A stretch of DNA of 64,000 nt from Candidatus Cloacimonadota bacterium (GCA_030445745.1 JASUTE010000001.1:71664-135663); one strand, 5' to 3'. Shown: positions 927 to 24,057, counted from the stretch's first letter. Translations and numbers: made by a program. Notes: generated by a model not told the origin, from the sequence alone.

Positions 927-933
927 TCCTCCT

Positions 934-5608: not shown

Positions 5609-5610
5609 AG

Positions 5611-6192: not shown

Positions 6193-6207
6193 CGTAACCT
6201 CCTCGGT

Positions 6208-6651: not shown

Positions 6652-7508
6652 TAATTTCCTCCATCAATGTGAATTTTTCTGAAATTAAACCATACGTCAA
6701 CCAATCCTATTAAAATCAGCAAAAAAATCAAGTAAGGATTGAAAATAAATGCTAAGATCAATAAAACCAGTAAAAATTTATGATTTTTTAGATAATTGCC
6801 CCAATAGAAGTGGAGCAATGATATACCTTGAATTAAAAACAGCGGTGCTATCACAAGCAATCCGTTCAAACCTATCGTGCGTGTATTTTGGAACAAAATA
6901 AAAACCAAGATTATTAAAAGCAGATAGATAATAGCGAACGGGATTTGAATTTTTTTATGTTCCCATTTTATGAATAATTTACGTGATAGTAACAAAAGGC
7001 CAAGGTAAGCGCCTAAAGTTAGCATCACTATCCAAATTGCCGGGTTACAGGTTATAAAAAATTCGTGTAGATTTTCGCTAACTTGCCTAATTAACTCTAG
7101 TTGCTCACCATTTTCTATAATTCCACCTTGCAACATCTTATCGTATTGAGCAAAGATCAAGTTGATATTTTCAATTATCACTTTATGGAACAACAGGTGC
7201 CGAATTACTCCAAAGAAGATGAAATAGAGGGTAACCTGCAACAAAGTTCTCAAATAGTTAAAATCTTTGAAAATATTCACGAAAATAAGATAAGAACCTA
7301 TTCCCACACCCATTATAAGGTCGTAGGCTGTGTAAGTACTTATTGCCTTTGGAAAAAGTATTCCAAACAATAGGACTACACTGGCAAACACCGCATAGAA
7401 CACATATTTACGAGGGTAATATTTATACCCTGTTATTGTTATAAAGATCAAACCCCAAAATGGGGAAAACATTCCTATGAATGCAGCTAAAACAGCAAAA
7501 AGTATCAC
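6651..7508 (-). CDS. DUF2232 (YybS-like) membrane protein
   Basis: A 285-residue integral membrane protein with around eight hydrophobic segments, beginning ILFAVLAAFIGMFSPFWGLI. Its length, topology and place between rpsR (2-base gap) and rplI (1-base overlap) match the YybS/DUF2232 family, which in Firmicutes lies near rpsF-ssb-rpsR-rplI. Its function is not established; an ECF-like substrate-binding fold has been suggested for relatives. I see no polar active-site motif. Confidence 0.72.
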   Translation of the reverse strand: MILFAVLAAFIGMFSPFWGLIFITITGYKYYPRKYVFYAVFASVVLLFGILFPKAISTYTAYDLIMGVGIGSYLIFVNIFKDFNYLRTLLQVTLYFIFFGVIRHLLFHKVIIENINLIFAQYDKMLQGGIIENGEQLELIRQVSENLHEFFITCNPAIWIVMLTLGAYLGLLLLSRKLFIKWEHKKIQIPFAIIYLLLIILVFILFQNTRTIGLNGLLVIAPLFLIQGISLLHFYWGNYLKNHKFLLVLLILAFIFNPYLIFLLILIGLVDVWFNFRKIHIDGGN

Positions 7509-7811: not shown

Positions 7812-8249
7812 TTAAAATGGAACATCGTCGTCTGTTGTTGTAGCTTCCATCTGATTGGAATCTTGGGAACTGGAATAGTTCTGATTCGAGCTATCATTAT
7901 ATTCCTTTTCCAAAAAATTAACTCGGCTAGCAACGACTTCAACTACTTTGCGGTTTTGGTTATCTCTATCTACAAATGTTCTGGTTTGTAGATATCCTTC
8001 GATAAGAACAGCGCTGCCTTTATGGAGATATTGAGCGCATCTTTCAGCTATTTTGCTCCAAACCACTACATCTATAAAACTGGTTTCCGATTGCCATTCG
8101 CCGGAAGCATCTTTGTAGTTGCGATCGAAAGCAATAGGAAGTTTTGTTACTGGTGTACCACTCTGGGTATAGCGCAATTCAATATCACGCGTTAATCTTC
8201 CACTTAAAATTACTGTGTTCACTCTGGGAAGGCGTAATTCTTTAGCCAT
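7812..8249 (-). CDS. ssb: Single-stranded DNA-binding protein
   Basis: SSB coats single-stranded DNA and recruits partners by its C-terminal tip. The 145-residue protein has one OB-fold (residues ~5-113) with VNTVILSGRLTRDIELRYT, FIDVVVWSKIAERCAQYLHK and VLIEGYLQTRTF, a Ser/Asn/Gln-rich linker, and the acidic end DDDVPF that partner proteins bind. It lies between rpsF and rpsR with short gaps, the usual arrangement. Confidence 0.97.
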   Translation of the reverse strand: MAKELRLPRVNTVILSGRLTRDIELRYTQSGTPVTKLPIAFDRNYKDASGEWQSETSFIDVVVWSKIAERCAQYLHKGSAVLIEGYLQTRTFVDRDNQNRKVVEVVASRVNFLEKEYNDSSNQNYSSSQDSNQMEATTTDDDVPF

Positions 8250-8257
8250 GTTACCCC

Positions 8258-8542
8258 CTAATTCTTAGTAAGGATATTATATCGGATAATATTTTCGTTA
8301 AAACGATATTGTGTTTCCAGTTTATCGATATTTTGGGGATCAAATTCGAAATAGTTAACAAAATAGTAAGCATCAGTTTGCTTTTGAATTTCGTAGGCTA
8401 ATTTCTGTTTGCCCCATTCATCAGAATTGCTGACTTCACCGCCATTTTTATTGATAAAATCAACAATCTGTTGATTGATCTCATTAGCTTTATCTTCTGG
8501 TAAAGCTGGCGAGACCAATAACATACTTTCGTATTTTCTCAT
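8258..8542 (-). CDS. rpsF: 30S ribosomal protein S6
   Basis: S6 pairs with S18 on the 30S platform. The 94-residue protein begins MRKYESMLLVSPALPEDK, has WGKQKLAYEIQKQTDAYYFV at ~44-63 and ends with the RFNENIIRYNILTKN strand. The start overlaps the pth stop by 4 bases. It heads the rpsF-ssb-rpsR-DUF2232-rplI block. Confidence 0.96.
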   Translation of the reverse strand: MRKYESMLLVSPALPEDKANEINQQIVDFINKNGGEVSNSDEWGKQKLAYEIQKQTDAYYFVNYFEFDPQNIDKLETQYRFNENIIRYNILTKN

Positions 8543-9138
8543 TTTACCTCCTTTGGTCTTGCGATTCTAAGCTGCTCGATTTGCTCAGAATAGGATTCTT
8601 TATTTCTGCTGAAAAAATTCAGCATTTCAGAAAAATCTTTTTCCAAATACTTTGCAATCAAAGTTTCTGAAAACTGTAATACAATTTCAAGTATTTTTTT
8701 TTCTGTTTGGGAAAAATTTCCCAAAACATGTTCTGTTAAAGAGCTATTTTCGGGAGCTCCTACTCCCAGGCGTAACCTTTTGAAATCTTTGCTACCCAAT
8801 GTGCTAATGATAGATTTTAAACCATTATGTCCACCACTTCCACCGGCTTGACGCAGGCGAATGATACCCAGTGGCAGGTTTATATCATCCATACACACTA
8901 AAATATCATCAAGTTTATATTTAGTCATAGCCGCAAGAACAGCTTGACCACTCAGGTTCATGTAGGTCTTTGGTTTTATGAAAATAGCTTCTTTAAAAAT
9001 GAAATAATTATAATTTTTAGCTCGTCGTTCAGTTAAACTGTATTTTTTTTTTATTTCATCTAGAAGCTGAAACCCAATATTATGGCGATTATTCCGATAT
9101 TTGCGACCAGGATTGCCCAGACCTACTATCAGTTTCAT
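8539..9138 (-). CDS. pth: Peptidyl-tRNA hydrolase
   Basis: Recycles peptidyl-tRNAs dropped by ribosomes. The 199-residue enzyme has the active-site sequence GLGNPGRKYRNNRHNIGF (catalytic His20, Asn10), FIKPKTYMNLSGQAV, VCMDDINLPLG (catalytic Asp) and RLRQAGGSGGHNGLKSI. Its start overlaps the stop of the ctc gene by one base, reproducing the widespread ctc-pth pair. Confidence 0.97.
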   Translation of the reverse strand: MKLIVGLGNPGRKYRNNRHNIGFQLLDEIKKKYSLTERRAKNYNYFIFKEAIFIKPKTYMNLSGQAVLAAMTKYKLDDILVCMDDINLPLGIIRLRQAGGSGGHNGLKSIISTLGSKDFKRLRLGVGAPENSSLTEHVLGNFSQTEKKILEIVLQFSETLIAKYLEKDFSEMLNFFSRNKESYSEQIEQLRIARPKEVK

Positions 9139-9818
9139 TATTCTTGAGTTTCTTTTTCTTCTTCACTTTCCCCTTCACTAGTTTCTTCACCTTCAGTAGC
9201 TTCTTCGCCTTCAACTAATTCTTCACCTTCAATTTCTTCTTCCTCTTCGGTTTCTATAATTAGTTCGCTAGGTTCAGCAATAGTGAGAATAGTGGTTTCG
9301 GGTGACAAGTTCACGTCTATCTTATCGGGGTCGAATTCAAGATCGGCTACGTGGATAGAATCACCCATATCATATTTGGTTACATCTATTTGAATAGCAT
9401 CTGGCACATCTTTTGGCAAGCAGGTTATCTGGATATTTCTAACTAGAAATTCCAAAACTCCACCTTTTTTAACTCCTTCAGATTCACCAATAAGCTGTAC
9501 AGGAATATCGATAGTGATGGGTTTACCTTCCTGTAATTCCATGAAATCGATATGGAGTATTTTCCTAGTTAAGGGATGCACTTGTTTTTCTCTGATAACC
9601 GTAGTATAATTATGATTATCTAAGTTTATATCGAAGAAAGCAACCTCTCCAATAGATTTTCTATAGATCTTAAAAAAATCTGCATCATTGATGCTAATTA
9701 GGATGCCATCTCTACCTTGGCCATAGATTATAGCTGGTATCTGACCTTCATTTCGAAGTTGTTTCAAATCAGATTTCTTTTTTGTAGTTCTTTTCTGAGC
9801 TTCTACCTTTAAGTTCAT
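9138..9818 (-). CDS. rplY: 50S ribosomal protein L25/general stress protein Ctc
   Basis: Binds 5S rRNA. The 226-residue protein is the long (TL5/Ctc) form: N-terminal L25 domain (~1-95) with AQKRTTKKKSDLKQLRNEGQ, IPAIIYGQG and HIDFMELQEGKP; C-terminal beta domain (~96-190) with LVRNIQITCLPKDVPDAI; and a glutamate-rich tail of ~35 residues that is low complexity. Lies between prs and pth, as in many Firmicutes. Confidence 0.95.
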   Translation of the reverse strand: MNLKVEAQKRTTKKKSDLKQLRNEGQIPAIIYGQGRDGILISINDADFFKIYRKSIGEVAFFDINLDNHNYTTVIREKQVHPLTRKILHIDFMELQEGKPITIDIPVQLIGESEGVKKGGVLEFLVRNIQITCLPKDVPDAIQIDVTKYDMGDSIHVADLEFDPDKIDVNLSPETTILTIAEPSELIIETEEEEEIEGEELVEGEEATEGEETSEGESEEEKETQE

Positions 9819-9838
9819 TCTTTTCCTCCGTTAGTAAG

Positions 9839-10786
9839 CTATCTAAACAAGATACTGATAGACTCGTTTATGTGAATTTTTTTGATAACAATAGCAAGCA
9901 ATTCGGCGATAGATAATTGCACTATCTTTTTGCATTTTTTCTGTTCTGTTGTTAGCGGAATAGAATCTGTGACAAACAATTTTTCGATAGGAGAGTTGTC
10001 TAAATTTTCTATAGCCTTCCCAGATAGAATGCCATGGGAACAGGCCGCATAAACCTTTTTTGCTCCCTTTTTCTTCAGGGTGTTTGCAATGCGGATTATG
10101 CTACCGCCAGTGTCGATGATGTCATCAAAAAGTAGCGCATTTTTATCTGTAACATCGCCAATAATATTAAGTATTTCCGCTTTATCTTCGTTAGCCACAC
10201 GGCGCTTATCACCAATAGCCAAAGTGCAGTTCAGCCTAGCAGCCAGTTCTCTGGCACGATGTGTGCCTCCAGAATCTGGAGAGACCACAACTGTGTTTTT
10301 TAAATCCAAATTATCTCGGAAATAACGCGCAAAAATAGGTTGCGACGTGAGGTGATCCACAGGAATATTGAAAAAACCCTGTATCTGGTCAGAATGCAGA
10401 TCTAGAGCTATCACTCTATCCGCACCGGCTGTAGTAATAAGATCTGCTACTAATTTTGCCGTAATAGGAACACGCGGCTGATCTTTTTTATCGGACCGCG
10501 CATAGGCAAAATAGGGAATAACGCAATTTACTCGCTCTGCCGACGCCCTTTTTAAGGCATCAACCATTATTAAAAGTTCCATCAAGTTGTCGTTTACTGG
10601 TCTGCAAGTAGGCTGAATTATGTAGCAATCAGCTCCACGTACGTTTTCGTTTATTTTAACGAAAGTATTATCGTTGGAAAACTTGAAAACTTCAGCTTCG
10701 CTAAGTGGTGTTCCTGCAAATTTAGCTACTTCAGCAGACAAGGTTTTATTAGCGTTTCCGGTGAATATTTTTAAGCGGGAATACAT
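9839..10786 (-). CDS. prs: Ribose-phosphate pyrophosphokinase (PRPP synthetase)
   Basis: Makes PRPP from ribose-5-phosphate and ATP for purine, pyrimidine, NAD, His and Trp synthesis. The 315-residue protein has FSNDNTFVKINENVRGAD near the N-terminus, IPYFAYARSDKKDQPR (ATP loop), the DLHSDQIQGFF segment, VVSPDSGGTHRAREL and the PRPP-binding motif LLFDDIIDTGGSI around residue 217-229. The RSDKKDQPR loop is close to the canonical RQDRK form but with substitutions. It is flanked by spoVG (7-base gap) and rplY (20 bases). Confidence 0.96.
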   Translation of the reverse strand: MYSRLKIFTGNANKTLSAEVAKFAGTPLSEAEVFKFSNDNTFVKINENVRGADCYIIQPTCRPVNDNLMELLIMVDALKRASAERVNCVIPYFAYARSDKKDQPRVPITAKLVADLITTAGADRVIALDLHSDQIQGFFNIPVDHLTSQPIFARYFRDNLDLKNTVVVSPDSGGTHRARELAARLNCTLAIGDKRRVANEDKAEILNIIGDVTDKNALLFDDIIDTGGSIIRIANTLKKKGAKKVYAACSHGILSGKAIENLDNSPIEKLFVTDSIPLTTEQKKCKKIVQLSIAELLAIVIKKIHINESISILFR

Positions 10787-10793
10787 TTTCTAT

Positions 10794-11135
10794 TTAAAGT
10801 TCTTCACTTTCTTCCGCATACTCATTAGTTTTTTCTTGGGCTTCTTCCTCGCGAGTTTCTGCGGCAGTTAAAGCTTCAGAAAGGGTTTCCTTGTATTTTG
10901 CTATGATAGTATCTTCTACCAAGCGGCGTGTTTCTGTATTGATTGGATGAGCAATATCACGGTATTCTCCACTAGCTACTTTTCTACTAGGCATAGCTAC
11001 AAATAAACCGTTGTTACCTTCGATAACCTTGATGTTTCTTATGATGAATGCATCATCGATTACCATGTTTACGAAAGCTTTTAGTTGATTTTGATTTCCT
11101 TCTCTGATAAATACTTTTACATCAGTAATGTTCAT
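10794..11135 (-). CDS. spoVG: SpoVG-family RNA/DNA-binding regulator
   Basis: A 113-residue SpoVG-family protein: MNITDVKVFIREGNQNQLKA, VMIDD-like VNMVIDDAFIIRNIKVIEG, LFVAMPSRKV and YRDIAHPINTETRRLVEDTI are all signature segments, followed by an acidic ~20-residue tail. SpoVG proteins bind nucleic acid and act as global regulators outside sporulation as well. The start overlaps the ispE stop by 14 bases. The neighbours ispE upstream and prs-ctc-pth downstream match the Firmicutes order ispE-(purR)-spoVG-(glmU)-prs-ctc-pth, with purR and glmU missing. Confidence 0.95.
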   Translation of the reverse strand: MNITDVKVFIREGNQNQLKAFVNMVIDDAFIIRNIKVIEGNNGLFVAMPSRKVASGEYRDIAHPINTETRRLVEDTIIAKYKETLSEALTAAETREEEAQEKTNEYAEESEEL

Positions 11136-11976
11136 TTTGTACTCCTTTGGTTTTTGTTATGTAATTCCAATAGTTTTGCTTGGAATAGTGTTGCGCTAAT
11201 TTTTCTGCGGTTTTTCTGTCGGGACAAAAAGCTATCATAGTGGCTCCGCTACCAGAAAGAATAGCTTTATTAGCCCCGTTTTCCTCTAAAAAATTCAATT
11301 CTCTGTCGATCACAGCAAATTTCTGGCGTATACCCACTTCTAATTTATTAAAACAGGTTTCTGGGTTAAATGTACTTTTAAAAAAATCCCAATCCCTATT
11401 TTCTCCGTTTAACTCTACCAATTCGTAGGCAGTTTTGCTACTTATGGCAAAGCCAGGATTTATTAGAAGTATATTCTCTATTTCTAAATTGGAAAGTGGA
11501 GTTATCTGTTCTCCGCGATCTTCACCTAAACAAGTTCCACCTTGCAAAAAGAAGTTGATATCACTACCGAATTTAGCTGCAATTTCATGTTGCTGCTTAG
11601 GGGTAAGTTGCAGCTGCCATAGTTCGGATAATGCTTTGATAGTGGTGGCTGCGTTACTGCTGCCTCCGCCTAAACCAGCTGAGATTGGTATATTCTTCTC
11701 TAAGGTTATCTCCACACCTCTTTGCACATTATATTTCTGTTTTATAAAGAACGCTATCTTGTATACCAAATTCTCTTTATTATTTAGAGAATCCAGGTTG
11801 GACAAAATTTTTATACTATCTTTTTCTGTCAAAGTAAAATTTATAAGGTCACAGAGCTCCAATTCTGTGAAAACTGTTCTTATTTCATGAAATCCATTAC
11901 TCTTTTCCCTTAAAACATCGAGGAAAAGATTGATTTTAGCTGGACTTTTTAGGCAAAGCTCCGTCTTTTTTCTCAT
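11122..11976 (-). CDS. ispE: 4-diphosphocytidyl-2-C-methyl-D-erythritol kinase
   Basis: MEP-pathway GHMP kinase. An open frame begins at 12051, but family homology starts at MRKKTELCLKSPAKINLFLD, so I place the start at 11976. The preceding GGTAAGGAAG could serve as ribosome-binding site though it lies very close. Motifs: SPAKINLFLDV at the N-terminus, PISAGLGGGSSNAATT (ATP loop, ~95-110), and AILSGSGATMIAF near the C-terminus. The start lies inside the last 41 bases of the wzc-like gene, in another frame, and the end overlaps spoVG by 14 bases. It indicates isoprenoid supply through the MEP pathway. Confidence 0.92.
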   Translation of the reverse strand: MRKKTELCLKSPAKINLFLDVLREKSNGFHEIRTVFTELELCDLINFTLTEKDSIKILSNLDSLNNKENLVYKIAFFIKQKYNVQRGVEITLEKNIPISAGLGGGSSNAATTIKALSELWQLQLTPKQQHEIAAKFGSDINFFLQGGTCLGEDRGEQITPLSNLEIENILLINPGFAISSKTAYELVELNGENRDWDFFKSTFNPETCFNKLEVGIRQKFAVIDRELNFLEENGANKAILSGSGATMIAFCPDRKTAEKLAQHYSKQNYWNYITKTKGVQNEHY

Positions 11977-14215
11977 CTTCCTTACCATAGTAGTAATAAT
12001 AGTAGTAGTTATATTCATAGCTACTGTAGTACTTTTGAGGATGTATACCATTTATGATAGCACCGGTGAAATCGGAATCTACATTGTCCAATATCTCTTT
12101 TATTCTTTTTATCACTATCTTATCTGCTTGATTTATTCTTACAGCCAAAGCCCTTAAATCTACTTTTTTAGCTAAAATTATTGAATCTGTAACAGCCATA
12201 GTAGGTGGTGTATCCAGCAGAATGTAATCATATTTTTGTTTTAAGATATCCAAAACTTCGTCCATATGGCTGGAAGCAATTAGTTCGGAAGGGTTCGGTG
12301 GTATAAAACCCGATGTAATTATATCTAAGTTATCAATTTTTGTTTTCTTTATAAATGTCTCCAGTGCTTTATCATGATCATAAAGGAAATCGCTGATACC
12401 TTCATTTTTTTCCAAATCGAATATTTTGTGTTGCATCGGACGGCGTAAATCCAGGTCAACCAAAATAACTTTCTTATCCATTTGAGAAAGTGCAACAGCT
12501 AAGTTGGAAATAATCGTAGATTTACCTTCTTTGGGACCTGAACTGGTTACTAGTAAAGAAAGTGGTTGGTCCTTTTTCTTTTTGGCAACAATATTTGTAC
12601 GCAGCATGCGGAATGATTCCGAGATAGATGATTTGGGTGCGTAATTTGTTATAAGTTTGCTTTCAACTTGTTGTTTTATTTGTTTTAATTCTTCTTTTTC
12701 CTTATCTGTTGCGTTTTTTATCTGCTTTTCTAAGTAATCAATATCGGAATCATGCACTCTAATAAAGGGAATTGTTCCTAAAATTGGCAACGAAACATAA
12801 TTTCTTACATCATCGAAGGTTCTTATTTTGCTGTCCAGTGAGTGTAGCAGGAAGGAAGAACCAATTCCGCCACCTAAGCCCAAAACAATTGCAATTAGCA
12901 GGTTCATTTTTTTATTTGGTTTTATTGGAGCTCCAGGAAGTTGGGCTTCTTCCACGATACGTATTTTACCCATTTTAGATTTTTCTGCAATTCTTGCTTC
13001 TTCAAATTTCTCGTTCAGCATAGTATAAGTTTTTTCATTAATTCTATTATTTCTTTCCAGGCGGGCAAGTTCAATTTCGGCATCTGGTAGTAAAGAAAGT
13101 TGTCTATTATATTGTTCTACACTTTTACGTAGATTTTCTACCTTCGATTCAGCAATATTTTTTTCTACTCGAGCCTTCGAAATACTAGAAATTAGGTCTG
13201 CTCGATAAACCAATGGGTCGGCAGTACCAGCTTTTACATTCGTAGTTTTTTGTATTTCTTCGTTAAGCTGTCTTTTAGCGTTATCTATTTGATTTTTTAA
13301 AGCAACCAATTCGGGATGGTCTGGGGAGTAAGATGGTTTGCTAAGTAAGTTCAAATATTTTGACTGGTTTGTAACAATTTCCCGGCGCAATTGTTCCAAA
13401 AGTGGAGTGGTAATTATCGAATTGACGTCACTCAGAAGTTTATCTTGATCAGAAAGTTCGCTAGTAAGAAAATCTAGTCTGTTTTTGGCAACTGCATACT
13501 CGGTTTCTGCTTCTGAAAGCAATAATTCCAATTCGGCAGATTGCTCTATTATCTGGGTGGTTTCCTCCGAGAGCATCGAGATACCTTTGTCTATCTTATA
13601 GGAACGTAAATCTTCTTCGGAATTACGCAGGCGTCTTTCAGTTTCATCTAATCTGTTTTCCAAAAATTCTCGAACATTTTTGAATTCAATTCGAGCGTAT
13701 TCATTATCCTTGTTTTGTAAACCCAAAGCTAAAGCATTTGCTACTAATTTGGCTTCTCCTGGGTGAGTCGATTCGTAACTTATTTTGATTATATCGGTTT
13801 CGCGCTGTGATTCAACTGCTAGTTTTTCTTTTATCGCACCTATCGGGCTAAATTTATCTGGCTCTTCATGATTTGCTGGATTCAAGGGTATTTCTGGATA
13901 GATCTCTGAATTTTGTATAATACTATAAGCGGCTTCTAATACCGGTCTGCTTTTCAGGATCTCGATATAATTGTTTATCGAAGTTGCTTTGTTAGCCATG
14001 GAAGAAAATAGCAGATTTTCTGAGGATTTTTCTTCCAACATTATAGTAGATGATGCTGAATAAATTTTGGGAGAGTGAAAAGTATATATAACAGTAGCAG
14101 CAACTACTAAAACAAATATTGCTATTATAAGCCATTTATAACGGCTAATTATATGTAGATAGTCGGTTAATTTTATCTCTTGCTCTTCAGTTTGTTCATA
14201 AAATTGATCTTGCAT
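11936..14215 (-). CDS. Wzc-like polysaccharide co-polymerase with BY-kinase domain
   Basis: 759 residues, full-length fused form. The N-terminal Wzz domain has a membrane segment WLIIAIFVLVVAATVIYTFH (~30-49); there is a long coiled-coil periplasmic region (~180-420); the second membrane segment is LLIAIVLGLGGGIGSSFLL. The C-terminal cytosolic bacterial tyrosine kinase has Walker A SSGPKEGKSTIISN (~557), Walker A' VILVDLDLRRP and Walker B YDYILLDTPP. The tail is a tyrosine cluster (around ten Tyr within 17 residues), the autophosphorylation tail that controls polymerisation. Directly after the SLBB export gene (9-base gap), so the pair forms an exopolysaccharide or capsule export unit, but no glycosyltransferases are nearby. 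Overlaps ispE by 41 bases. Confidence 0.93.
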   Translation of the reverse strand: MQDQFYEQTEEQEIKLTDYLHIISRYKWLIIAIFVLVVAATVIYTFHSPKIYSASSTIMLEEKSSENLLFSSMANKATSINNYIEILKSRPVLEAAYSIIQNSEIYPEIPLNPANHEEPDKFSPIGAIKEKLAVESQRETDIIKISYESTHPGEAKLVANALALGLQNKDNEYARIEFKNVREFLENRLDETERRLRNSEEDLRSYKIDKGISMLSEETTQIIEQSAELELLLSEAETEYAVAKNRLDFLTSELSDQDKLLSDVNSIITTPLLEQLRREIVTNQSKYLNLLSKPSYSPDHPELVALKNQIDNAKRQLNEEIQKTTNVKAGTADPLVYRADLISSISKARVEKNIAESKVENLRKSVEQYNRQLSLLPDAEIELARLERNNRINEKTYTMLNEKFEEARIAEKSKMGKIRIVEEAQLPGAPIKPNKKMNLLIAIVLGLGGGIGSSFLLHSLDSKIRTFDDVRNYVSLPILGTIPFIRVHDSDIDYLEKQIKNATDKEKEELKQIKQQVESKLITNYAPKSSISESFRMLRTNIVAKKKKDQPLSLLVTSSGPKEGKSTIISNLAVALSQMDKKVILVDLDLRRPMQHKIFDLEKNEGISDFLYDHDKALETFIKKTKIDNLDIITSGFIPPNPSELIASSHMDEVLDILKQKYDYILLDTPPTMAVTDSIILAKKVDLRALAVRINQADKIVIKRIKEILDNVDSDFTGAIINGIHPQKYYSSYEYNYYYYYYYGKEDEKKDGALPKKSS

Positions 14216-14224
14216 AATACCTCG

Positions 14225-14707
14225 CTATAGATTCGAAATGGTTAAGTACATACTAAGAAAAATAGCTATATTAGATAGAAAATCTGCCCATCTGGTAAAG
14301 GCATAAAAAACAGTGCCTGACACTATAATTGTATCACCGGGTTGTAAAGTGGGAATCAGATTATCATTGGCGGTTTCCATATAATCCTTCAAGTCTACCA
14401 AAATTACCTCTTCACCTTCTTCTGTGGAACGAACTATTCTTACCTTGGAAAGTTTGGCATCTTCGGTAGGGCCATTTGCTAGAGATAATAGAGTAAGTAA
14501 ATCAGTATCATCAGGCACAATGTAGAGTCCAGGTTTCCTTACTTGTCCCCAAATATAGGTTTTTATTTTTAGTTGATCAGCTTCTTGCAAGGTTCCGCTA
14601 TATAAGTAGGCTGAACCAGGCGCAAAAGAAGAACTGGGGGCAGTGTCCTGACAAATAGCAACTGTGGCTATGCTTAATAAAAATAATATAATTAAAATTC
14701 TTTTCAT
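14225..14707 (-). CDS. Short SLBB-domain polysaccharide export protein
   Basis: 160 residues with a signal peptide (MKRILIILFLLSIATVAICQ). A SLBB domain follows: IWGQVRKPGLYIVPDDTDLLTLLSLANGP is split over ~52-80, then VRIVRSTEEGEEVILVDLKDY and LQPGDTIIVSG. It ends with a hydrophobic segment after the SLBB domain (WADFLSNIAIFLSMYLTI). It lacks the N-terminal poly-export domain of full Wza, so it may be an accessory subunit or shortened outer-membrane export protein. Followed after 9 bases by the wzc-like gene, which supports a role in polysaccharide export. Confidence 0.8.
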   Translation of the reverse strand: MKRILIILFLLSIATVAICQDTAPSSSFAPGSAYLYSGTLQEADQLKIKTYIWGQVRKPGLYIVPDDTDLLTLLSLANGPTEDAKLSKVRIVRSTEEGEEVILVDLKDYMETANDNLIPTLQPGDTIIVSGTVFYAFTRWADFLSNIAIFLSMYLTISNL

Positions 14708-14762
14708 TTTAACTCCCTTAATTTTACCAAAAATTATCAGAATAGATTTAGGTCAAGCAAAT

Positions 14763-15560
14763 TTATTGCTCGGTTATTCTTATCGTATATACATGCGATT
14801 CCGAACCAGAATGAATGGTATATTGAGTGCCATTAACTTCCTCATCCAAGGTGTTGCCAAAAGCATCTACTCGCCAATAGATTGTATTGTAAGAAGTTAG
14901 CTCAGGGCCTTCATATAAAACTTCATAATTAGCACCTCCAGGGTGGTCTGTAGGTTGAAAAGCCCATAATAAATCGTAGTTGCCATCAAATACAAGTAAT
15001 CTATACTCTATTACCTCAGCATTTTCATTCCATTGGAAATAGAGCTCATCACCTGCAGTGTAATTATAACCATCAAAAGGTGCCAGTAGCTCTGGTTTTT
15101 GTAGTAATTTATAGCAAGTGGTATCGGAGATACTGAAATTACCTGATGTATCGTATACCTTGATGTAATAAAACCATTTTTTGTTGATTGATGGATCGTA
15201 ATTAGCAAATTGGTCGAAATAGTAATTTTGCGTAGAATAGGCTACAGAATCGATCTTAATAGCTTCATTTTCTTGTAAATTAAATCTGTAAATCTGTAAA
15301 TAATCAATATCGTCATCGGTAAAAGTTTCCCACTGAATTTTTATCCAGTCATCTTCCGGGACGGCATCGATACCGTTGTTTTCGTAACCCACATTGTTAC
15401 AATAGTTTATTATATTTTCTCCATGAAGATCGCCGCTATCGCCCAAATGAGGTACCATTACGGGCTGTTGAGGCGGAGTGTTGTCGCTGCCCAAAGTTTC
15501 TTCACCAGCACAGGCAAATAGTAGCAAGGCTAATATTCCCCCCAAAATATAGAATTTCAT
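14763..15560 (-). CDS. Lipoprotein with fibronectin-III-like domains
   Basis: 265 residues beginning MKFYILGGILALLLFACAGEE: a signal peptide with a lipobox (LLFAC), so it is likely lipidated and facing the outer membrane. The rest is beta-rich with FN3-like turns: WIKIQWETFTDDDIDYLQIY, KKWFYYIKVYDTSGNFSISD, LYFQWNENAEVIEYRLLVFD and YNTIYWRVDAFG. No catalytic motif is seen. It lies 9 bases after the PorV-like gene in the same run as the C25 peptidase, which suggests a surface-assembly or accessory role. Confidence 0.72.
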   Translation of the reverse strand: MKFYILGGILALLLFACAGEETLGSDNTPPQQPVMVPHLGDSGDLHGENIINYCNNVGYENNGIDAVPEDDWIKIQWETFTDDDIDYLQIYRFNLQENEAIKIDSVAYSTQNYYFDQFANYDPSINKKWFYYIKVYDTSGNFSISDTTCYKLLQKPELLAPFDGYNYTAGDELYFQWNENAEVIEYRLLVFDGNYDLLWAFQPTDHPGGANYEVLYEGPELTSYNTIYWRVDAFGNTLDEEVNGTQYTIHSGSESHVYTIRITEQ

Positions 15561-15569
15561 ATCTACCCC

Positions 15570-16595
15570 TTAAAAGTTTATTCTTAATCCCACTCTATTT
15601 GTGTTGCCTAAATTATTTGTTAAAAAGGCATAATCTATTTCAAAATCATAAATATTTATACTTAAGCCCGCAGAAAAATTATCGCTTTCATCACTATTTA
15701 CGTTGTAGTAGCCAAATCGAAGAGAGACTAATTTATTATAATTGAATTCAAGTCCGTAATGATGAGTTCTACCATAAGCGTAATCGGTATCTTTACTTAA
15801 AATTATTTCACTTTTCCAGCTGGGAATTGTTTGGAAGTATGCTAAGCCTAATTTGGTATTGAACAGAATCTCATCTTCGTGTTTCGATTCTGTGTCCCAA
15901 CTTATTGTGGTTCCACCCAAATTTTGAACATTAACTGCAAATGCGAAATCACCAAACCAGTCTATGTCTAAAATAGTGGCTAAGTCGGTTTTTCCTAAAT
16001 AGGAAAAATCGTAGCCAATCCCGGTACCGATATTATCCATCATCTCGCGTCTTATATATTTCACATTAGTTCCTAGATACATATCGAAAGGAATTTCGAA
16101 AAATACCCAACCAAGATTTAAATCGTAGTGAATATGCTTGGCAAAACCAAACTGGAACAGGTCGTCTGCACTGGTGAAATTACCATCGGGCACAGCAGGC
16201 AATTGCAACTCTGGATCGGTAGCTCTTTGGTCTACAGTGGTACCCACTAGATAATTTTCTTTGTATATGGGTATATCGTCCACAGTTAAACGTGTCCAAT
16301 TCACACCTAATGTTACTCCATTTGGCAGGGGTTGGCAGTAGCTAAAGTTGTCGTATTTTGCCAAGTTTTCATATAAGAAGGCACGCATCACTTCTATTTG
16401 TGCTTCTCTGATTTGAGCCAGCCCGGCAGCGTTCCAGTAGATGGCTGCACCATCATCGGCAATAGCACTATAAGCGCCAGCAAGGCCTAAAGCACGCACA
16501 CCTGCTCCTATTGCCATAAAATCTCCAGCATATCTTGTGGCTGCTAAACTACAGAATATTATTACCGATAAAATAGTTAATATTGCTTTTTTCAT
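15570..16595 (-). CDS. PorV/PorQ-family outer-membrane protein
   Basis: 341 residues: signal peptide (ILTILSVIIFCSLAATR), then the hallmark N-terminus of PorV/UPF0164 proteins, MAIGAGVRALGLAGAYSAIA followed by DDGAAIYWNAAGLAQI, and a beta-barrel ending in an aromatic C-terminal strand (NRVGLRINF). In Bacteroidetes PorV (LptO) is the shuttle that brings T9SS cargo to the sortase PorU. Here it is 9 bases downstream of a C25 peptidase gene, the same porU-porV order. The next gene is a lipoprotein. The T9SS role is inferred; the family is well supported. Confidence 0.88.
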   Translation of the reverse strand: MKKAILTILSVIIFCSLAATRYAGDFMAIGAGVRALGLAGAYSAIADDGAAIYWNAAGLAQIREAQIEVMRAFLYENLAKYDNFSYCQPLPNGVTLGVNWTRLTVDDIPIYKENYLVGTTVDQRATDPELQLPAVPDGNFTSADDLFQFGFAKHIHYDLNLGWVFFEIPFDMYLGTNVKYIRREMMDNIGTGIGYDFSYLGKTDLATILDIDWFGDFAFAVNVQNLGGTTISWDTESKHEDEILFNTKLGLAYFQTIPSWKSEIILSKDTDYAYGRTHHYGLEFNYNKLVSLRFGYYNVNSDESDNFSAGLSINIYDFEIDYAFLTNNLGNTNRVGLRINF

Positions 16596-16604
16596 AAAAA
16601 TATC

Positions 16605-19600
16605 CTATTTTAAAATTGCCATTTTTTTGGTTTTTTCAATAGTTTTATTACCCTTTTTAGCAATGATTTTATAGAAATAAACTCCATTTGCTAAATAAAA
16701 ACCATCTTTATCTCTACAATCCCATCCCAGTACTTTTCTGGGGAATTCATGATAACCAACACCTGTTTCTAAATTTTTGAAAGTTCTAACCAAGCGGCCA
16801 CTGACTGTGTAAATTTTAATGGTAACCTCATCTGCACTATCGGTTAAGGTATAGGTAAAGCGGGTTCTTCCTTCATTATGTGAATCGATAGTTCGGGATT
16901 TTACAGGGTTGGGATAGTTGGCTATCTGGATTATATCAAATTGGTTGCTCACTACAAAACGAATAACCAATTCCTGATAATTCCCATTCACATCCGTGCA
17001 GCTTAAAGCCAGGGTATGATCGCCTTTATCCAGATTATTCAATTGATATTTCAGAGGAACATGCACCAAATTGCCGTAAGAAAATGACTGACTGTAATCT
17101 TCCTGGGGAACTAACTGGCTGTCTAAATAGATCGCTACAGTTTGGCTGAAAATATCTATACCATTGGCATCGGACATTGTAAATGAAATTACTCCATCTT
17201 TAGATATAAAGCCGCCGTGTGTAAATTCCTGACCTTCTACATTTGCCTCTATGGTAGGCGCTCGGCTGTCGTTATTTTGAAAAACAGAGTAGTTACCTAT
17301 CATGTCTAATTCAGTTTCGATATAATTTTCCTCTGTATTCAGCTCACCGCCAACTATAACCCATTTCTCATAGTCTGCTTGCCATCTATAAATTGCTAAC
17401 TTTCCTTGTTGTGCAGCAAGCTGGGTTAATGAATCTGTTGCAGAATAATAAAATTGTAGCTGAAATTCTTTTCCTTGAGGTAAATGGCCTAAACTGTCTG
17501 CTAAAAGCTCTTCATTCATTATAGAGATTTCGTAAGCTGGCGATTCACTTTCATCAGCGAAATTTATATTAACAATATCTGGTTGATTGATAGCAGTATA
17601 ACTACCTTTTTTTAGGAGTGAGAGCACGGTATTTTGCTCAAATAAGTTAGCCGGCATCTCACATACTGCATTGTTGTCTAAGCTTGTAGCTATTTGTCCT
17701 GCCGCTGTTAGTTCGAATAGGTTCAACTCTATTTGCTCGGTATTGGTCGCATTGTTGTACAGATTTGTCTCAGCAAAAGATTCACCATTTTCATTTACTA
17801 TAATTTTAAAAGTTTTGTTATCGTTTAAAAGCGGTATATTCAAGTTTTCCCAGCGTTCCTCCATAGTTTCAAAAGAGCCAATTTGTACTGAATCCATCAA
17901 TGTATTATTCATAAGATCATATAATTTTAAATAGGAAGCTGGCGCTTGATTGTCACCGCTATTTTGTATTAATACTTGGAAAACAGGGTATCCGTTTGAA
18001 GTAGAGCGACGATAATTCCTAATAACTAAATCGGGACTTACAAAATTAATTCGCTGCAGTTCGGTTTCTGTAAGTTGTTGCTGATTGTCTATAATTTTAA
18101 AATAGTAGGAAATTTGGTTAGCATCAGTGGTAGGTGGTATTTTTTCTGTTAACTCATAGCGATTGTCTGTCACAAGTTCCATCGGGATTTCAGCATAATT
18201 AACTACATAGCAGCTAATTTCTTGAATACCGTCTTTATCAAAGAAATCGGCACTAATATTTATGGAATCGTTTTGAGTGGGAGCGGTCGGTTCAATCTGC
18301 AAATTTACATAAGCTGTTTTGCCAACTGTGAAATTTGTACTACCCACACTTTCTCCCGTATTGCTGTATGAAAAGAGTTTTACATTTCTTTGGTAAATTG
18401 CTTCATCAATTTCAGGAACTACGAAATCTTCGTAGGTTATGGTGCTGTTTACAGCGGGTATTTCAAATGGATAAAATTGTGTAAAGGGTATTTGAACATC
18501 GTTTTCATTGTATATCCTATATTTTCCACCTATTGTTTCTGAACTCACCGCAGCCGAGAAATCCAAAGAGTCGCCCTCATTTACATTATAATCAGTTAAA
18601 TCAATGTCATTTTCCTGAAGTGGTAAAGTTAATCTTATCATGGGATCTCCCAAAAGAGCACAGCCCTGAATCAGAGCTGTGCCTACTTCTCCACTTCCAT
18701 ACGAACTGAAAAATTTTGCCTTGGTATAGTCGCTTATTTCCCCTAGTGAGCGTACATTTTCATTAATAATTCCCTGATTTAAATAGTTCCCAAAATATTC
18801 ATCTGCATTTTCATAGCCATATCCGGTAAAGCCCATATGCCCAATAGCACCTTTACCGGCTTGAAGTATAAGCTCTTCACCAATACAGGAACTTTGAGGA
18901 TAATTGAAAGCTGAACCATAACAGGAAAGGCTGGCAAAAAGAGGGAAGTTTTCGTTATTAAAAGTGGCAACATCGGCTTTGTTCAACAGGTTGTAGTCAG
19001 CCCAAACATATCCACCACCATGTCCCATAAATTGTACGTATAATGTGCCATCGTTAATATTGCTAATAAGGCTGGTTGTGTTACCTCCATATTCGTCAGG
19101 AATATCATCGGTATTACAGTAGACACGCGCAATATGATAGTCTGCTGGAATGTTGTTTTTTATAATTCTCTCCGATTGTTCGGCAAAAAAGGTACCTTCA
19201 CTTGGATTACCTCCAGCGGCAAAAGTAAAGCGGCTGTGCCACAGATCGGGATAATTGGGATTTTCCAAATAATGGGTTGCTTTATCGGCCATATCGTAAA
19301 TTTGCTCAGGTTCCCAAATATTTATACGGCCAATACTAACATCGCCAACAATATCGTCGCCCACTACACAGCCAAACCAGTTATCACTAGCAATTGCTCC
19401 ACGCTTATTTACCCAAACATTTCTGAATGGAATAAGATTATATCTTTCTTTTTGCTTGCGTAAATATTCATTATAATCACGTTCATCGGTAATTCCATCA
19501 CCCATAAAAAGTATGTGTGAAGGTCGCTGTGCCCAATTATAATAAGCAAATGATATAAAATCTTTAATTGCCTCGGCTGAGCGAATGCTATGGTTGAATT

Positions 19601-21620
19601 CATCGAAAATGTCTTGTAGATAAACTACTTTTGTATTGTAACCTTGCTGCTGCCAGATTTCGGCATATTGCTTAACGCCATTTCTTAAACCTTCTTCCAT
19701 CTCTTCCCACATAGAATCAAATTTGAATTTTTGTGGTGTGATGATAACATAATCTGCACCATTACTGTTCAATTTCAGATTGGAAGGATAATCAGGTTGA
19801 ATTTTCACAGGCTTTTTCTTATTGTTTTCCGTAACTGCGAAATATTGGATATTATCTGCAATCACACTATCTTGAAAAGTGATTTTATAAGGAGCACCAC
19901 CCGCTTGATAAAACGATTCTACACGCAGATTTTCCATATAGCTGGACCCCAATTTATACACAGAAACATCAGGCGAACTAAAGTTTTCCAATTCGAACTG
20001 ATACAAGCCATAGGGTTGGTGAATTTCAGCGTAATTATAGTCTGGTCTCGAGAATTTCATATAATCTTTATCAGTTTTATATTCTCTCCAATAGGTCATT
20101 TCAAAATAATCAAGTAACACATGTTCTTTATCACCTATTCCTGGAATTCCCGGCAAGCGAATATAAATAGTGTTTTGCCCATTATTCAAATATGTGTTAG
20201 GAAAACCTGAGGCATTAGCAAAAATTTGCTGACGTTGACCACTCCATTCAATATCATCAACTAAAACCGAATTAATACCACATATGGCATGATGGTCAAT
20301 TTCGTAACCCTCTGTATCAGAAAGCCCCCACACAGAAATATTACTATAAAATTTTCGGATACCGCTATCGTGCGGATATTCCAAATTAAAAGAGGTTAAA
20401 TTTAACTTAGGAGCATCTATCTTTTTCCAAAACCAAATATCCTCTCGGAAAAAATTGGGATTATAGCCAAATTGAGCACCTAAATTATCTTTTATATTTT
20501 GTTCTTCAAAATGAATTGTTTGAGGAAAGGATTCTGGTACAACGAATTGTGATTCATCGTTTACCTGTATTCCGCCATTTTCCACAGCCATACGGCAGCC
20601 ATAACCTTCATGCAAAGTGAGTTCGTAAACATTTACCGAGGAGTAATCGTCGTAGTAGGTATTTTCCCCGTGATGAATCTCACCCCAAAATTCAAAGTAA
20701 TCACCTGGGTCGAAAGAACCATCGGCCTCGCCCACAAAGCGAATAGGCACAGGACCATTTTTGTCTGTTAATTGCAAAAAACGGGGATCAATAGTATCCC
20801 AATCGAATTCGAGAGAATACTCTGGATATTTTTCCCAATAGGTGGCTAAAGAATCGGTGAGATATTGGTAGGAAATTTTATAAATTCCTTCCTCAGCTAC
20901 CAGTAATTGAATGGAGTCGACTATATTTTCATTTCGATAAGATTTTTTATTTCTATTTATTTCCTTTTCCAATCTCCATTTTTTAGAAGTTTCGTTGTTC
21001 AAACAAAAATCGCTATCTAATTGATCTATGTAGTTATTGCTGCTACGCCAATTTTTGCTGATTGTTTTCTTGCCATGCAGAGTAAATTGAATGGTGAGTT
21101 CTTTAGCTATCTGCAAACTTTTTGTAGCAGCATTGTATTGGAAAGGATAAATTTGGAAACTACCAAAATATCTGTCACCAATAAATGCTTTTTCTCCCAA
21201 TTTTATTTTTTTTTGTGGGTAGAAAAAATTCTGTTTTTCCAGAATTGGATTGACAGCTTCAGTTTCTATTTTGTCTTCTTTGTAAATTAGTTTGGGAGCT
21301 GGCTGTATTTGTACGCCATGCTTGGTTGTTATATTTTGTTCCACAATTTGTGCCTGCATATCGCCGTTTACTGGCAGTCCTACCAAATTGGAAAAATAGG
21401 GAAGTTCAGCATATCCAGTGTGGGAAGTTTTACCGTCGGCAAGGCAGAATATTTCAGAATAATTACCTGTTTGCTCAATTTTGTATTCGGGTAGAGTAAA
21501 TTTAACTGTCAATGAATTATCGGTTTCTTCTATTACTTCATAAACACTAGCTAACCCACTTGTTAGCAATAAGATGCTGAATAATACGGTAAAAAAGCGT
21601 TTCATAAATCTTCTCCACAA
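16605..21620 (-). CDS. Giant C25 (gingipain-like) peptidase, PorU-like, with FlgD-type C-terminal domain
   Basis: 1671 residues with a signal peptide (MKRFFTVLFSILLLTSGLAS; an internal Met at residue 6 may be the real start). The caspase-like C25 domain spans roughly residues 620-1000; the catalytic dyad is visible as His867 in FMGHGGGYVW and Cys900 in SLSCYGSAFN. Beta-rich Ig-like regions follow, and the last ~100 residues (from NYPNPVKSRT) are a FlgD_ig / T9SS type-A sorting-like domain ending NGVYFYKIIAKKG. C25 proteins are gingipains or the T9SS sortase PorU. The next gene is PorV-like, favouring PorU. Longer than P. gingivalis PorU (~1158 residues). Complete and not disrupted. Confidence 0.9.
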   Translation of the reverse strand: MWRRFMKRFFTVLFSILLLTSGLASVYEVIEETDNSLTVKFTLPEYKIEQTGNYSEIFCLADGKTSHTGYAELPYFSNLVGLPVNGDMQAQIVEQNITTKHGVQIQPAPKLIYKEDKIETEAVNPILEKQNFFYPQKKIKLGEKAFIGDRYFGSFQIYPFQYNAATKSLQIAKELTIQFTLHGKKTISKNWRSSNNYIDQLDSDFCLNNETSKKWRLEKEINRNKKSYRNENIVDSIQLLVAEEGIYKISYQYLTDSLATYWEKYPEYSLEFDWDTIDPRFLQLTDKNGPVPIRFVGEADGSFDPGDYFEFWGEIHHGENTYYDDYSSVNVYELTLHEGYGCRMAVENGGIQVNDESQFVVPESFPQTIHFEEQNIKDNLGAQFGYNPNFFREDIWFWKKIDAPKLNLTSFNLEYPHDSGIRKFYSNISVWGLSDTEGYEIDHHAICGINSVLVDDIEWSGQRQQIFANASGFPNTYLNNGQNTIYIRLPGIPGIGDKEHVLLDYFEMTYWREYKTDKDYMKFSRPDYNYAEIHQPYGLYQFELENFSSPDVSVYKLGSSYMENLRVESFYQAGGAPYKITFQDSVIADNIQYFAVTENNKKKPVKIQPDYPSNLKLNSNGADYVIITPQKFKFDSMWEEMEEGLRNGVKQYAEIWQQQGYNTKVVYLQDIFDEFNHSIRSAEAIKDFISFAYYNWAQRPSHILFMGDGITDERDYNEYLRKQKERYNLIPFRNVWVNKRGAIASDNWFGCVVGDDIVGDVSIGRINIWEPEQIYDMADKATHYLENPNYPDLWHSRFTFAAGGNPSEGTFFAEQSERIIKNNIPADYHIARVYCNTDDIPDEYGGNTTSLISNINDGTLYVQFMGHGGGYVWADYNLLNKADVATFNNENFPLFASLSCYGSAFNYPQSSCIGEELILQAGKGAIGHMGFTGYGYENADEYFGNYLNQGIINENVRSLGEISDYTKAKFFSSYGSGEVGTALIQGCALLGDPMIRLTLPLQENDIDLTDYNVNEGDSLDFSAAVSSETIGGKYRIYNENDVQIPFTQFYPFEIPAVNSTITYEDFVVPEIDEAIYQRNVKLFSYSNTGESVGSTNFTVGKTAYVNLQIEPTAPTQNDSINISADFFDKDGIQEISCYVVNYAEIPMELVTDNRYELTEKIPPTTDANQISYYFKIIDNQQQLTETELQRINFVSPDLVIRNYRRSTSNGYPVFQVLIQNSGDNQAPASYLKLYDLMNNTLMDSVQIGSFETMEERWENLNIPLLNDNKTFKIIVNENGESFAETNLYNNATNTEQIELNLFELTAAGQIATSLDNNAVCEMPANLFEQNTVLSLLKKGSYTAINQPDIVNINFADESESPAYEISIMNEELLADSLGHLPQGKEFQLQFYYSATDSLTQLAAQQGKLAIYRWQADYEKWVIVGGELNTEENYIETELDMIGNYSVFQNNDSRAPTIEANVEGQEFTHGGFISKDGVISFTMSDANGIDIFSQTVAIYLDSQLVPQEDYSQSFSYGNLVHVPLKYQLNNLDKGDHTLALSCTDVNGNYQELVIRFVVSNQFDIIQIANYPNPVKSRTIDSHNEGRTRFTYTLTDSADEVTIKIYTVSGRLVRTFKNLETGVGYHEFPRKVLGWDCRDKDGFYLANGVYFYKIIAKKGNKTIEKTKKMAILK

Positions 21621-21669: not shown

Positions 21670-22461
21670 TTAAAAATTTTCCCATATGAATTTTAATAAT
21701 TCTAAGGTTGCAAGTTGCCTTATTTTAGTGCGATTCCCTCTTAATTGTAATTTTTTATGGATCTTTTTTTCTTTGTTTGCAGCTGCGATATAAACCGTAC
21801 CTACAGGTTTTTCTTTAGTGCCTCCGCTGGGCCCTGCAATTCCTGTTACAGAAGCTGCAATATCGCACTGAAAAATCTGGCGAGTACTTGTAGCCATCTG
21901 GATAGCTGTTTCTTTGCTAACAGCACCATATTTTTCTAAAGTATCTTGTGGGATCTGTAAAATTTTCTGTTTAGCTCTATTGGAATAGGCTATCACACCA
22001 CCCATAAAGTACTTGGAAGCTCCACTATTGGCTGTGATGTATGATTGTATCATGCCACCAGTACAAGATTCAGCGATAGCTATTGTTAAGTTTTTAAATT
22101 GTAATTTCTTGTGTAGTTGCCAAGCAGCATTTTCCACTTTCTGTTCCAATTTCAGCTGTGGTTTAAGCGGTTTTGATTCCCATTTATTAGCTTTACCATG
22201 CCTTACTCCGTGTTTCTCTGGTTTTGGTTGCTGCTTTCTTTTGATGTCTCGATTTGCCTCTATCTTGATGTGTTTGTCTTCGAATCTAATTTCGTCGCCT
22301 ACTTTAACTTCAAACCGGGGTTTAAGCACAGTTTCATAGTTAACTGTTACCTTGCCTTCTTTCACTATGTTGCGAATATCGGCATATTTTTCGAATATTC
22401 CAGCTGCTTTTAATAGTTGGCCAACCTGTATCTTATCGTCTCTGTCTATCCAAAATTTCAT
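21670..22461 (-). CDS. Fusion of an S4 RNA-binding domain with CinA C-terminal amidase (PncC)
   Basis: 263 residues in two parts. Residues ~1-70 form an S4-like (YbcJ/RlbA-type) fold: VGQLLKAAGIFEKYADIRN and VKEGKVTVNYETVLKPRFEV then VKVGDEIRF. A basic linker (~70-105, RKQQPKPEKHGVRHGKANKW) follows. Residues ~108-263 are the CinA-C nicotinamide-nucleotide amidase: IAIAESCTGGMIQSYI (catalytic Ser-containing motif), KYFMGGVIAYSNRAKQ, and VTGIAGPSGGTKEKPVGTVY. PncC deamidates NMN in pyridine nucleotide recycling. I see no frameshift; one continuous frame. The gene abuts the proS stop (no gap) and precedes the C25 gene. I recall the two domains as separate proteins elsewhere; see findings. Confidence 0.88.
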   Translation of the reverse strand: MKFWIDRDDKIQVGQLLKAAGIFEKYADIRNIVKEGKVTVNYETVLKPRFEVKVGDEIRFEDKHIKIEANRDIKRKQQPKPEKHGVRHGKANKWESKPLKPQLKLEQKVENAAWQLHKKLQFKNLTIAIAESCTGGMIQSYITANSGASKYFMGGVIAYSNRAKQKILQIPQDTLEKYGAVSKETAIQMATSTRQIFQCDIAASVTGIAGPSGGTKEKPVGTVYIAAANKEKKIHKKLQLRGNRTKIRQLATLELLKFIWENF

Positions 22462-23985
22462 TTAGTACGCCTTTGCGAAAATTACTCTTTTCCTGCTCGG
22501 TTTGCCACAATAAATACATTTCCCCGATTCATTTTTAGCGTCCCAAGGAATAATGCGAATGGTTACCTTAAGATCATCCTTAATTTTCTCTTCACATTCA
22601 GCATTCCCACACCAAGGTGCTAAAACAAAACCGCCGTGTATCTCCGGGTTCTCTTTATTTTTGGGAGTGAAAAATTTATAAAACTCCTCTTTGTTGTCAA
22701 TGTTCTTAGTATTTTTTTCTCTAAATTCTTTCGCTTTTTGATAAATATTATGTTGGATTTCGGATAGGATCTGTGGTAATTCTTCTATAAAATTATCAAT
22801 CTGCAAGCTTTGTTTATCTCGTGGTGCTTTATCTCTTCTACCCATGAAAACGGAATTTTTCTTAATATCACGAGGGCCAATTTCCAAACGAATTGGAATT
22901 CCTTTTTTTATCCACTGCCAGGTTCTTTCACCACTAGTCAGGTCGCGGTCATCTAAGCGTACGATTATCTTATTTTCATCGTAGCGAACAGTTTTTAATT
23001 TTTCTTGGAGTGTAGTGATAAACTGCATTACTTCAGTTTTTTCTTCTTCATTCCGATAAATGGGAATTATGGCTACATGAGCCGGTGCCAGTCGCGGAGG
23101 TACTACCAAACCGTTATCATCGCTATGTGCCATTATAAGAGCACCGATAAGGCGGGTGGAAACGCCCCAAGAGGTAGTCCAAGCGTATTCTTCAACACCA
23201 TTTTGATTTTGGAATTTTATATTGGAAGCTTTGGAAAAATTTTGTCCTAAAAAGTGGGAAGTACCGGCTTGTAATGCCTTTTTATCTTGCATCATAGCTT
23301 CAATAGAAAAAGTATGTAAAGCACCTGGAAATCTTTCCGATTCTGTTTTCTCACCTTTTATTACAGGAATAGCTAAATAATCTTCAGCAAATTTAGCATA
23401 GATGTCCAGCATCTTTTTGGTTTCTATATATGCTTCTTCTTCGGTGGCATGCACGGTGTGGCCTTCTTGCCATAAAAATTCTGTTGTGCGTAAAAATAGG
23501 CGAGTCCTTAGTTCCCAACGTACCACATTTGCCCATTGGTTTATCAACAAAGGAAGATCACGGTAAGAATTCACCCATTTGCTAAAGGAAGCTCCGATAA
23601 TGGTTTCGCTGGTAGGACGCACAATAAGTTCTTCTCCTAGTTTGCCCGCCGGCCTCAGCCCACCCTTGCCATCGTCTTCCAAACGTGAATGGGTAACAAC
23701 TGCACACTCTTTGGCAAAGCCTTCCACATGTTCAGCTTCTTTTTCAAAATAACTCTTGGGAATAAATAACGGAAAATATGCATTCACATGTCCAGTTTCT
23801 TTGAACATATCATCCAAATTACGCTGAATATTTTCCCAAATCGTATAACCCCACGGTTTTATCACCATGCAGCCTCGCACTTCACTATTTTCTGCCAAAT
23901 CAGCAGCCATTATCACTTGCTGATACCAGGTAGGATAATCTTCCTCTCGGGTAGGATTTATCGCTGTTCTTGACTTTTTAGCCAT
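22462..23985 (-). CDS. proS: Prolyl-tRNA synthetase (archaeal/eukaryotic type)
   Basis: Charges tRNA-Pro. Start set at the second in-frame Met: a Shine-Dalgarno GGGAG lies 5 bases upstream of ATGGCT at 23985, whereas ATG at 23997 has none. ~507 residues: class II motif 1 around PWGYTIWENIQRNLDDMF, motif 2 with IVRPTSETIIGASF, QWANVVRWELRTRLFLRT, and motif 3 SWGVSTRLIGALIMAH; anticodon domain ~285-400; the zinc-binding C-terminus is C-G-N-A-E-C (6 residues) plus C-I-Y-C, ending VIFAKAY. The short form has no insertion editing domain. It is first of the 21-kb minus run. Confidence 0.96.
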   Translation of the reverse strand: MAKKSRTAINPTREEDYPTWYQQVIMAADLAENSEVRGCMVIKPWGYTIWENIQRNLDDMFKETGHVNAYFPLFIPKSYFEKEAEHVEGFAKECAVVTHSRLEDDGKGGLRPAGKLGEELIVRPTSETIIGASFSKWVNSYRDLPLLINQWANVVRWELRTRLFLRTTEFLWQEGHTVHATEEEAYIETKKMLDIYAKFAEDYLAIPVIKGEKTESERFPGALHTFSIEAMMQDKKALQAGTSHFLGQNFSKASNIKFQNQNGVEEYAWTTSWGVSTRLIGALIMAHSDDNGLVVPPRLAPAHVAIIPIYRNEEEKTEVMQFITTLQEKLKTVRYDENKIIVRLDDRDLTSGERTWQWIKKGIPIRLEIGPRDIKKNSVFMGRRDKAPRDKQSLQIDNFIEELPQILSEIQHNIYQKAKEFREKNTKNIDNKEEFYKFFTPKNKENPEIHGGFVLAPWCGNAECEEKIKDDLKVTIRIIPWDAKNESGKCIYCGKPSRKRVIFAKAY

Positions 23986-24057
23986 CTTCACTCCCATCTA
24001 CATTTATTGAAATCTAAAGTTTAAAATTGTACTTCTTTGTCAAACGAAAATACAGAA

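Follow-up and report, generated by a model that had tools for sequence, protein, structure and literature searches.

A long C25 protein encoded beside a PorV-family barrel and an SLBB protein in Cloacimonadota and distant phyla: a possible second T9SS attachment complex

Judged by sequence, the long C25 protein encoded in the Candidatus Cloacimonadota DNA analysed here appears to belong to a third clade of C25 proteins, separate from PorU and from the gingipains, and the barrel encoded next to it differs from the genome's canonical PorV. The genes of this pair are followed by those of a lipoprotein and an SLBB protein, and the recurrence of this order in different phyla with changed flanking genes is the strongest evidence for a functional link. 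Since the cluster recurs in several distant phyla, it may serve to attach secreted proteins to a sugar on the cell surface, and such a coupling between protein sorting and a polysaccharide is plausible. What is understood of T9SS sorting comes from Bacteroidota, chiefly from P. gingivalis, in which the acceptor is an anionic LPS presented by PorZ. By analogy with that system, we propose that the run could be a second T9SS attachment complex, acting in parallel to the canonical PorU and using as acceptor a glycan handled by the Wza-like SLBB protein, a proposal that we regard as nearly evenly balanced between right and wrong.

The window, i.e. the whole stretch of 64,000 nucleotides that was analysed, belongs to a Candidatus Cloacimonadota MAG of 2.04 Mb that is 99.3% complete. 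Five genes lie on its minus strand with intergenic gaps of 9, 9, 55 and 9 bases: a long C25 sortase-like protein, here named PorU-L (16605..21605, 1666 aa), a PorV/PorQ-family, PorV2-like outer-membrane barrel (15570..16595, 341 aa), a lipoprotein with two fibronectin-III/Ig-like domains (14763..15560, 265 aa), an SLBB protein (14225..14707, 160 aa) and a Wzc-type chain-length determinant with a BY-kinase (11936..14215, 759 aa). The preliminary description had listed these genes in this order and at these positions, and had read in them a C25 domain with a His/Cys pair and a FlgD-type tail, a PorV-like protein, a lipoprotein, an SLBB protein lacking a poly-export domain and a Wzc-like kinase; all of these readings hold against the profile and alignment data. 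The run is embedded in housekeeping genes of the same strand, with CinA/S4-like (21670-22461) and ProS (22462-23997) upstream and IspE, SpoVG, Prs, RplY, Pth, RpsF and Ssb (7812..12051) downstream. A candidate for a conserved unknown gene of 415 aa upstream of the C25 gene was discarded, as its sequence is that of PurD. The scan for promoters and terminators returned sites no more numerous than in shuffled sequences. Just upstream of ProS, the opposite strand encodes a protein of 744 aa that combines FG-GAP repeats with an UnbV/ASPIC end (24314-26548). Additionally, the region 49946-53710 contains ExbB-ExbD-TonB-like genes and, behind them, FolP-like and DacA genes. The last two are about 30 kb away from the long C25 gene here, but in Calditrichota and Latescibacterota they stand immediately or almost immediately upstream of it.

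Gene order was read at 36 loci in Cloacimonadota and at the 19 loci in Calditrichota that reached far enough. The C25-PorV-lipoprotein-SLBB order is kept in 21 of the 36 Cloacimonadota loci, with a 22nd lacking the lipoprotein only, and 22 of the 36 keep the order through to Wzc with or without the lipoprotein (among these, one PorV was found by tblastn and one locus has a small extra frame before SLBB). Eight further loci, all from family f12, have C25-PorV only, and the lipoprotein-SLBB-Wzc-IspE-Prs block is intact elsewhere in the genome; three loci break after the lipoprotein (two g22 genomes and G022), one holds the C25 gene alone and two are ended by contig ends. The long C25 copies of Poribacteria and of genome G060 have no adjoining PorV. 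In Calditrichota all 19 loci keep the four-gene order (the lipoprotein frame is broken in one, L288); upstream stand FolP-DacA where that side is covered, often with a cargo-like protein in between, and downstream a barrel-like protein of 384 aa, then often Cdd. One Latescibacterota genome reads C25-PorV-lipoprotein-SLBB-Wzi-nucleotidyltransferase (of sugar type)-IspE-Prs-RplY-Pth, one unclassified genome reads C25-PorV-lipoprotein-SLBB-nucleotidyltransferase, and in one Zixibacteria genome a complete polysaccharide operon adjoins C25-PorV, with genes for an epimerase, a Wza-type Poly_export protein, Wzz, an ATPase, a kinase and glycosyltransferases behind the pair. A locus titled Armatimonadetes (L173, JABMPU010000009.1) is the same as that of G055:C31 from the window's own family and is probably a mislabelled MAG. 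In some Cloacimonadota (L073, L092, L195, L201, L206) genes for gingipain-like C25 cargo are inserted right after C25-PorV-lipoprotein.

One would argue that such an arrangement is simply inherited: C25-PorV would be a second T9SS processing pair, consisting of a CTD peptidase and a shuttle, and the link to SLBB-Wzc would reflect chromosome order with no coupling between sorting and export. This is the main rival to our proposal, and we consider it somewhat doubtful though far from negligible. In Cloacimonadota the whole stretch ProS-CinA-PurD-C25-PorV-lipoprotein-SLBB-Wzc-IspE-Prs-RplY-Pth is conserved, so that the envelope genes sit inside a slowly rearranging housekeeping cluster, and SLBB-Wzc stays with IspE-Prs-RplY-Pth just as faithfully as with the C25 gene. 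Therefore, the order in Cloacimonadota alone would not indicate function, as the housekeeping neighbours are equally conserved. The separation of C25-PorV from SLBB-Wzc in family f12 fits inheritance as well, and so do IspE-Prs-RplY-Pth, which follow the run in Latescibacterota too. However, the flanks differ in Calditrichota and at locus L251, with FolP-DacA before and a barrel-like protein, Cdd or a nucleotidyltransferase after, and the four inner genes are still together; moreover, polysaccharide genes recur beside the pair in two further phyla. Identity between phyla is 26-45% across the cluster and 26-27% for the C25 protein; the four genes have thus been neighbours for a long time, during which their flanks changed. 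A compact five-gene module with Wzc as the general unit was rejected, since Wzc takes the position after SLBB in Cloacimonadota alone, and in some lineages the run is split. The suggestion that the run couples sorting to an exported polysaccharide therefore survives in part: the genome's translocon, its many cargo proteins, the SLBB link in at least three phyla and the adjoining polysaccharide genes in Latescibacterota and Zixibacteria speak for it, and the restriction of Wzc and the splitting of the run speak against it.

The lipobox cysteine of the lipoprotein is invariant in 26 relatives, and its structure is confidently predicted (pLDDT 90.9) as two FnIII/Ig-like domains, for which the fold search returned generic FnIII matches only. 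The SLBB protein consists of a signal peptide, a single SLBB domain and a C-terminal hydrophobic helix, which is long in the predicted structure (pLDDT 87); its best fold matches are Wza and Myxococcus WzaB. The domain search found no Poly_export (PES) domain in the SLBB proteins of the window and of Calditrichota. The Wzc protein combines Wzz, GNVR and AAA_31 kinase domains (TIGR01007, 174.9 bits, cut-off 108.05), and Walker motifs and a tyrosine-rich tail can be read in its sequence. With Wza and the short OPX proteins (E. coli Wza, M. xanthus WzaB, EpsY) the SLBB protein shares the fold, the signal peptide and the neighbouring Wzc-type kinase, but it differs from them in having no PES and only one SLBB domain plus the C-terminal helix.

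These features permit a reading in which polysaccharide export is primary: a truncated OPX-like SLBB protein, a barrel (PorV2-like here, Wzi or the 384-aa barrel-like protein elsewhere) and Wzc would form a composite translocon, and the C25 protein would do no more than process some of its parts. The SLBB fold matches Wza and the short OPX protein WzaB, barrel proteins always adjoin SLBB, and composite OPX/beta-barrel translocons, in which a short periplasmic export protein is likewise encoded beside outer-membrane barrels, are known (PMC9601211). However, the window system has no D1/PES part, which even the known short D1D2 OPX proteins retain (PMC9601211), its constant neighbour is a PorV-family barrel, the PorV-family barrels studied so far are T9SS shuttles, and a full Wza is encoded elsewhere in the genome. 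Thus we find this reading improbable.

The long C25 protein comprises a propeptide, a C25 domain with the His/Cys dyad, an Ig/CARDB-like region of about 550 residues and a FlgD-type T9SS C-terminal domain. Pfam recognises Peptidase_C25 (8e-76), Propeptide_C25 and FlgD_ig (3.6e-10), and the protein's own T9SS C-terminal domain scores 23.1-25.3 bits with TIGR04183, at or above the cut-off of 23. His867 and Cys900 are invariant across the family and align with the catalytic dyad of P. gingivalis PorU. This numbering follows the frame of 1671 residues in the preliminary description, which is indeed open from a TTG start up to 21620; the TTG overlaps the GGAGAAG ribosome site, and therefore the likelier start is the ATG at 21605, giving 1666 aa with the dyad at His862/Cys895. 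The tree of C25 catalytic domains has three groups: canonical PorU together with P. gingivalis PorU (support 100/99), a gingipain-like group with RgpB and four other C25 proteins of the window's genome (98/96), and the long window-type group (91/93). Placing P. gingivalis PorU in the long group gave p 0.083 in the AU test, just short of formal exclusion, and this single divergent reference is a fragment; for these reasons its place in the tree is not final. The long protein is present in 70 of 71 good Cloacimonadota genomes and 37 of 40 Calditrichota, and the clade extends to Latescibacterota, Zixibacteria and Poribacteria.

The preliminary description took the pair for PorU and PorV, and this identity was not sustained. 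To the PorU model NF033707 (cut-off 420) the long C25 protein scores 269.8 bits, whereas a C25 protein of 1028 aa on contig C21 of the same genome scores 393.8 and the relatives of the latter in other Cloacimonadota and Zixibacteria reach 606-755 bits, over the cut-off; the identity of the window protein as canonical PorU was accordingly rejected in favour of the C21 protein. The canonical PorU of the window's genome (L096:7637-10723, G000:C21) has a shorter N-terminus than its relatives of about 1290 aa and adjoins lpxD/lpxC-like genes, and in genome G012 the canonical PorU directly precedes CoaX-SprA. The barrel passes the PorV/PorQ family model NF033709 (PorV_fam) narrowly, with 91.6 bits where the cut-off is 90, and reaches 27.2 bits with canonical PorV (NF033710, cut-off 250); the best canonical-PorV score of the genome, 144.8 bits, belongs to a barrel on contig C6 that adjoins an M6-like CTD protein. 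That the window pair is nevertheless the canonical PorU/PorV of the phylum would be in line with the adjacency of the two genes and with the best PDB match of the long C25 protein by sequence, the P. gingivalis PorU structure (88.7 bits), but the better-fitting C25 protein and barrel elsewhere and the grouping of P. gingivalis PorU with the other clade, its AU value notwithstanding, make this very unlikely. Since the pair is not the genome's PorU and PorV, the roles of PorU as sortase and PorV as shuttle cannot be transferred to it directly. A second PorU-like/PorV-like pair is also described by the NCBIfam models PorU2 (NF052324) and PorV2 (NF052325), and PorV2 is the best match of the window barrel; however, the window proteins score far under both cut-offs (183.8 against 450 and 94.2 against 325 bits), and the C25 protein scores higher with PorU. 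Our literature search retrieved no paper using the name PorU2 and none joining the T9SS with SLBB.

That the long C25 protein should be cargo, a secreted protease of the gingipain type, and not a sortase is hardly credible: it has the C25 domain, Propeptide_C25 and T9SS C-terminal domain of gingipains, but RgpB groups elsewhere in the tree, on which ground the gingipain identity was rejected, the Peptidase_C25_C domain, which two of the four gingipain-like C25 proteins of the genome possess, is absent, and the gene is, unlike cargo, single-copy, near-universal and placed beside its own PorV.

The genome search located the Sov/SprA translocon on contig C27 (2035 aa, 502 bits, over the cut-off), with SprA present in all 71 good Cloacimonadota genomes searched. 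About 70 proteins of the window's genome share the T9SS C-terminal domain (type A tail), and together with Sov/SprA they indicate that T9SS parts exist there; a possible T9SS in Cloacimonadota was stated earlier (PMC11285876). GldM/PorM gave no match in this genome and six others, which says little, as no genome known to hold PorM was among those searched. MlaD/MCE-type lipid transport genes lie directly 3' of SprA (L094:7836-17063, G000:C27). At another locus (L103, G000:C10:35000-44031, positions 257-6709) the genes directly after ExbB-/TonB-like ones encode a PorV paralogue and a protein of 1027 aa whose C-terminal end resembles PorZ, possibly an energy link in a genome with no recognised PorM. 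Other PorV paralogues adjoin large CTD proteins, among them an M6-like inactive protease and a subtilisin-type protease (L101 7097-11289, L104 2289-10609), which suggests dedicated barrel-CTD pairs. Contig C21 carries a single cluster with genes for Wza, Wzx-like and Wzy-like proteins and sugar transferases. Thus Sov and glycosyltransferase genes are missing from the window, as was pointed out at the outset, but both occur elsewhere in the genome and the gap in the window is no sign of their absence. The complete polysaccharide cluster shares its contig with the canonical PorU and not with the window, which counts against coupling.

In P. gingivalis, PorU remains bound to PorV via its uncleaved tail, removes the tails of cargo proteins and attaches these proteins to A-LPS, which PorZ supplies (PMC10202324). 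The window run resembles the PorU-PorV-PorQ-PorZ complex in its C25 protein, with a Cys/His dyad and a CTD of its own, in the neighbouring gene for a PorV-family barrel, and in that the genome also encodes SprA and numerous CTD cargo proteins. It differs in that its C25 protein is of a distinct clade and longer (1666 aa versus about 1160), its partner is not canonical PorV, SLBB and the FnIII lipoprotein stand in place of PorZ/PorQ, and a canonical PorU is encoded in the same genome. In our proposal of a second attachment complex, the long C25 protein would be exported by Sec, pass SprA/Sov by means of its C-terminal domain and be held on the outer surface by this uncleaved domain bound to its cognate PorV2-like barrel. 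From a subset of cargo it would remove the C-terminal domain and pass these proteins on to an acceptor. This acceptor would be a polysaccharide or glycolipid that the SLBB protein encoded nearby, a cut-down Wza-like exporter, handles; in Cloacimonadota, synthesis of the acceptor would be controlled by the Wzc kinase whose gene lies next in the run. The lipoprotein, with its two FnIII domains in tandem, may bridge or scaffold the complex, and the SLBB/lipoprotein pair would fill the place of PorZ. What the sequences show is the gene content, an order kept across phyla, three C25 clades and the presence of SprA and cargo; that the C25 protein sits on the surface and acts as a sortase, what its acceptor is and what SLBB and lipoprotein do, we infer by analogy to P. 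gingivalis from domains and gene order.

In its most general form, the idea is that several FCB-group and neighbouring phyla possess a second T9SS sortase complex that works next to a canonical PorU in the same cell. It would anchor secreted proteins to an exported polysaccharide, and a pared-down SLBB protein together with a lipoprotein on the surface would deliver this polysaccharide, in place of PorZ and anionic LPS; we put this forward tentatively, as a possibility. If true, T9SS sorting would be wider than known from Bacteroidota, with more than one acceptor system. The four genes offer a target open to testing and a hint of how protein and sugar coats may be joined in uncultivated phyla.
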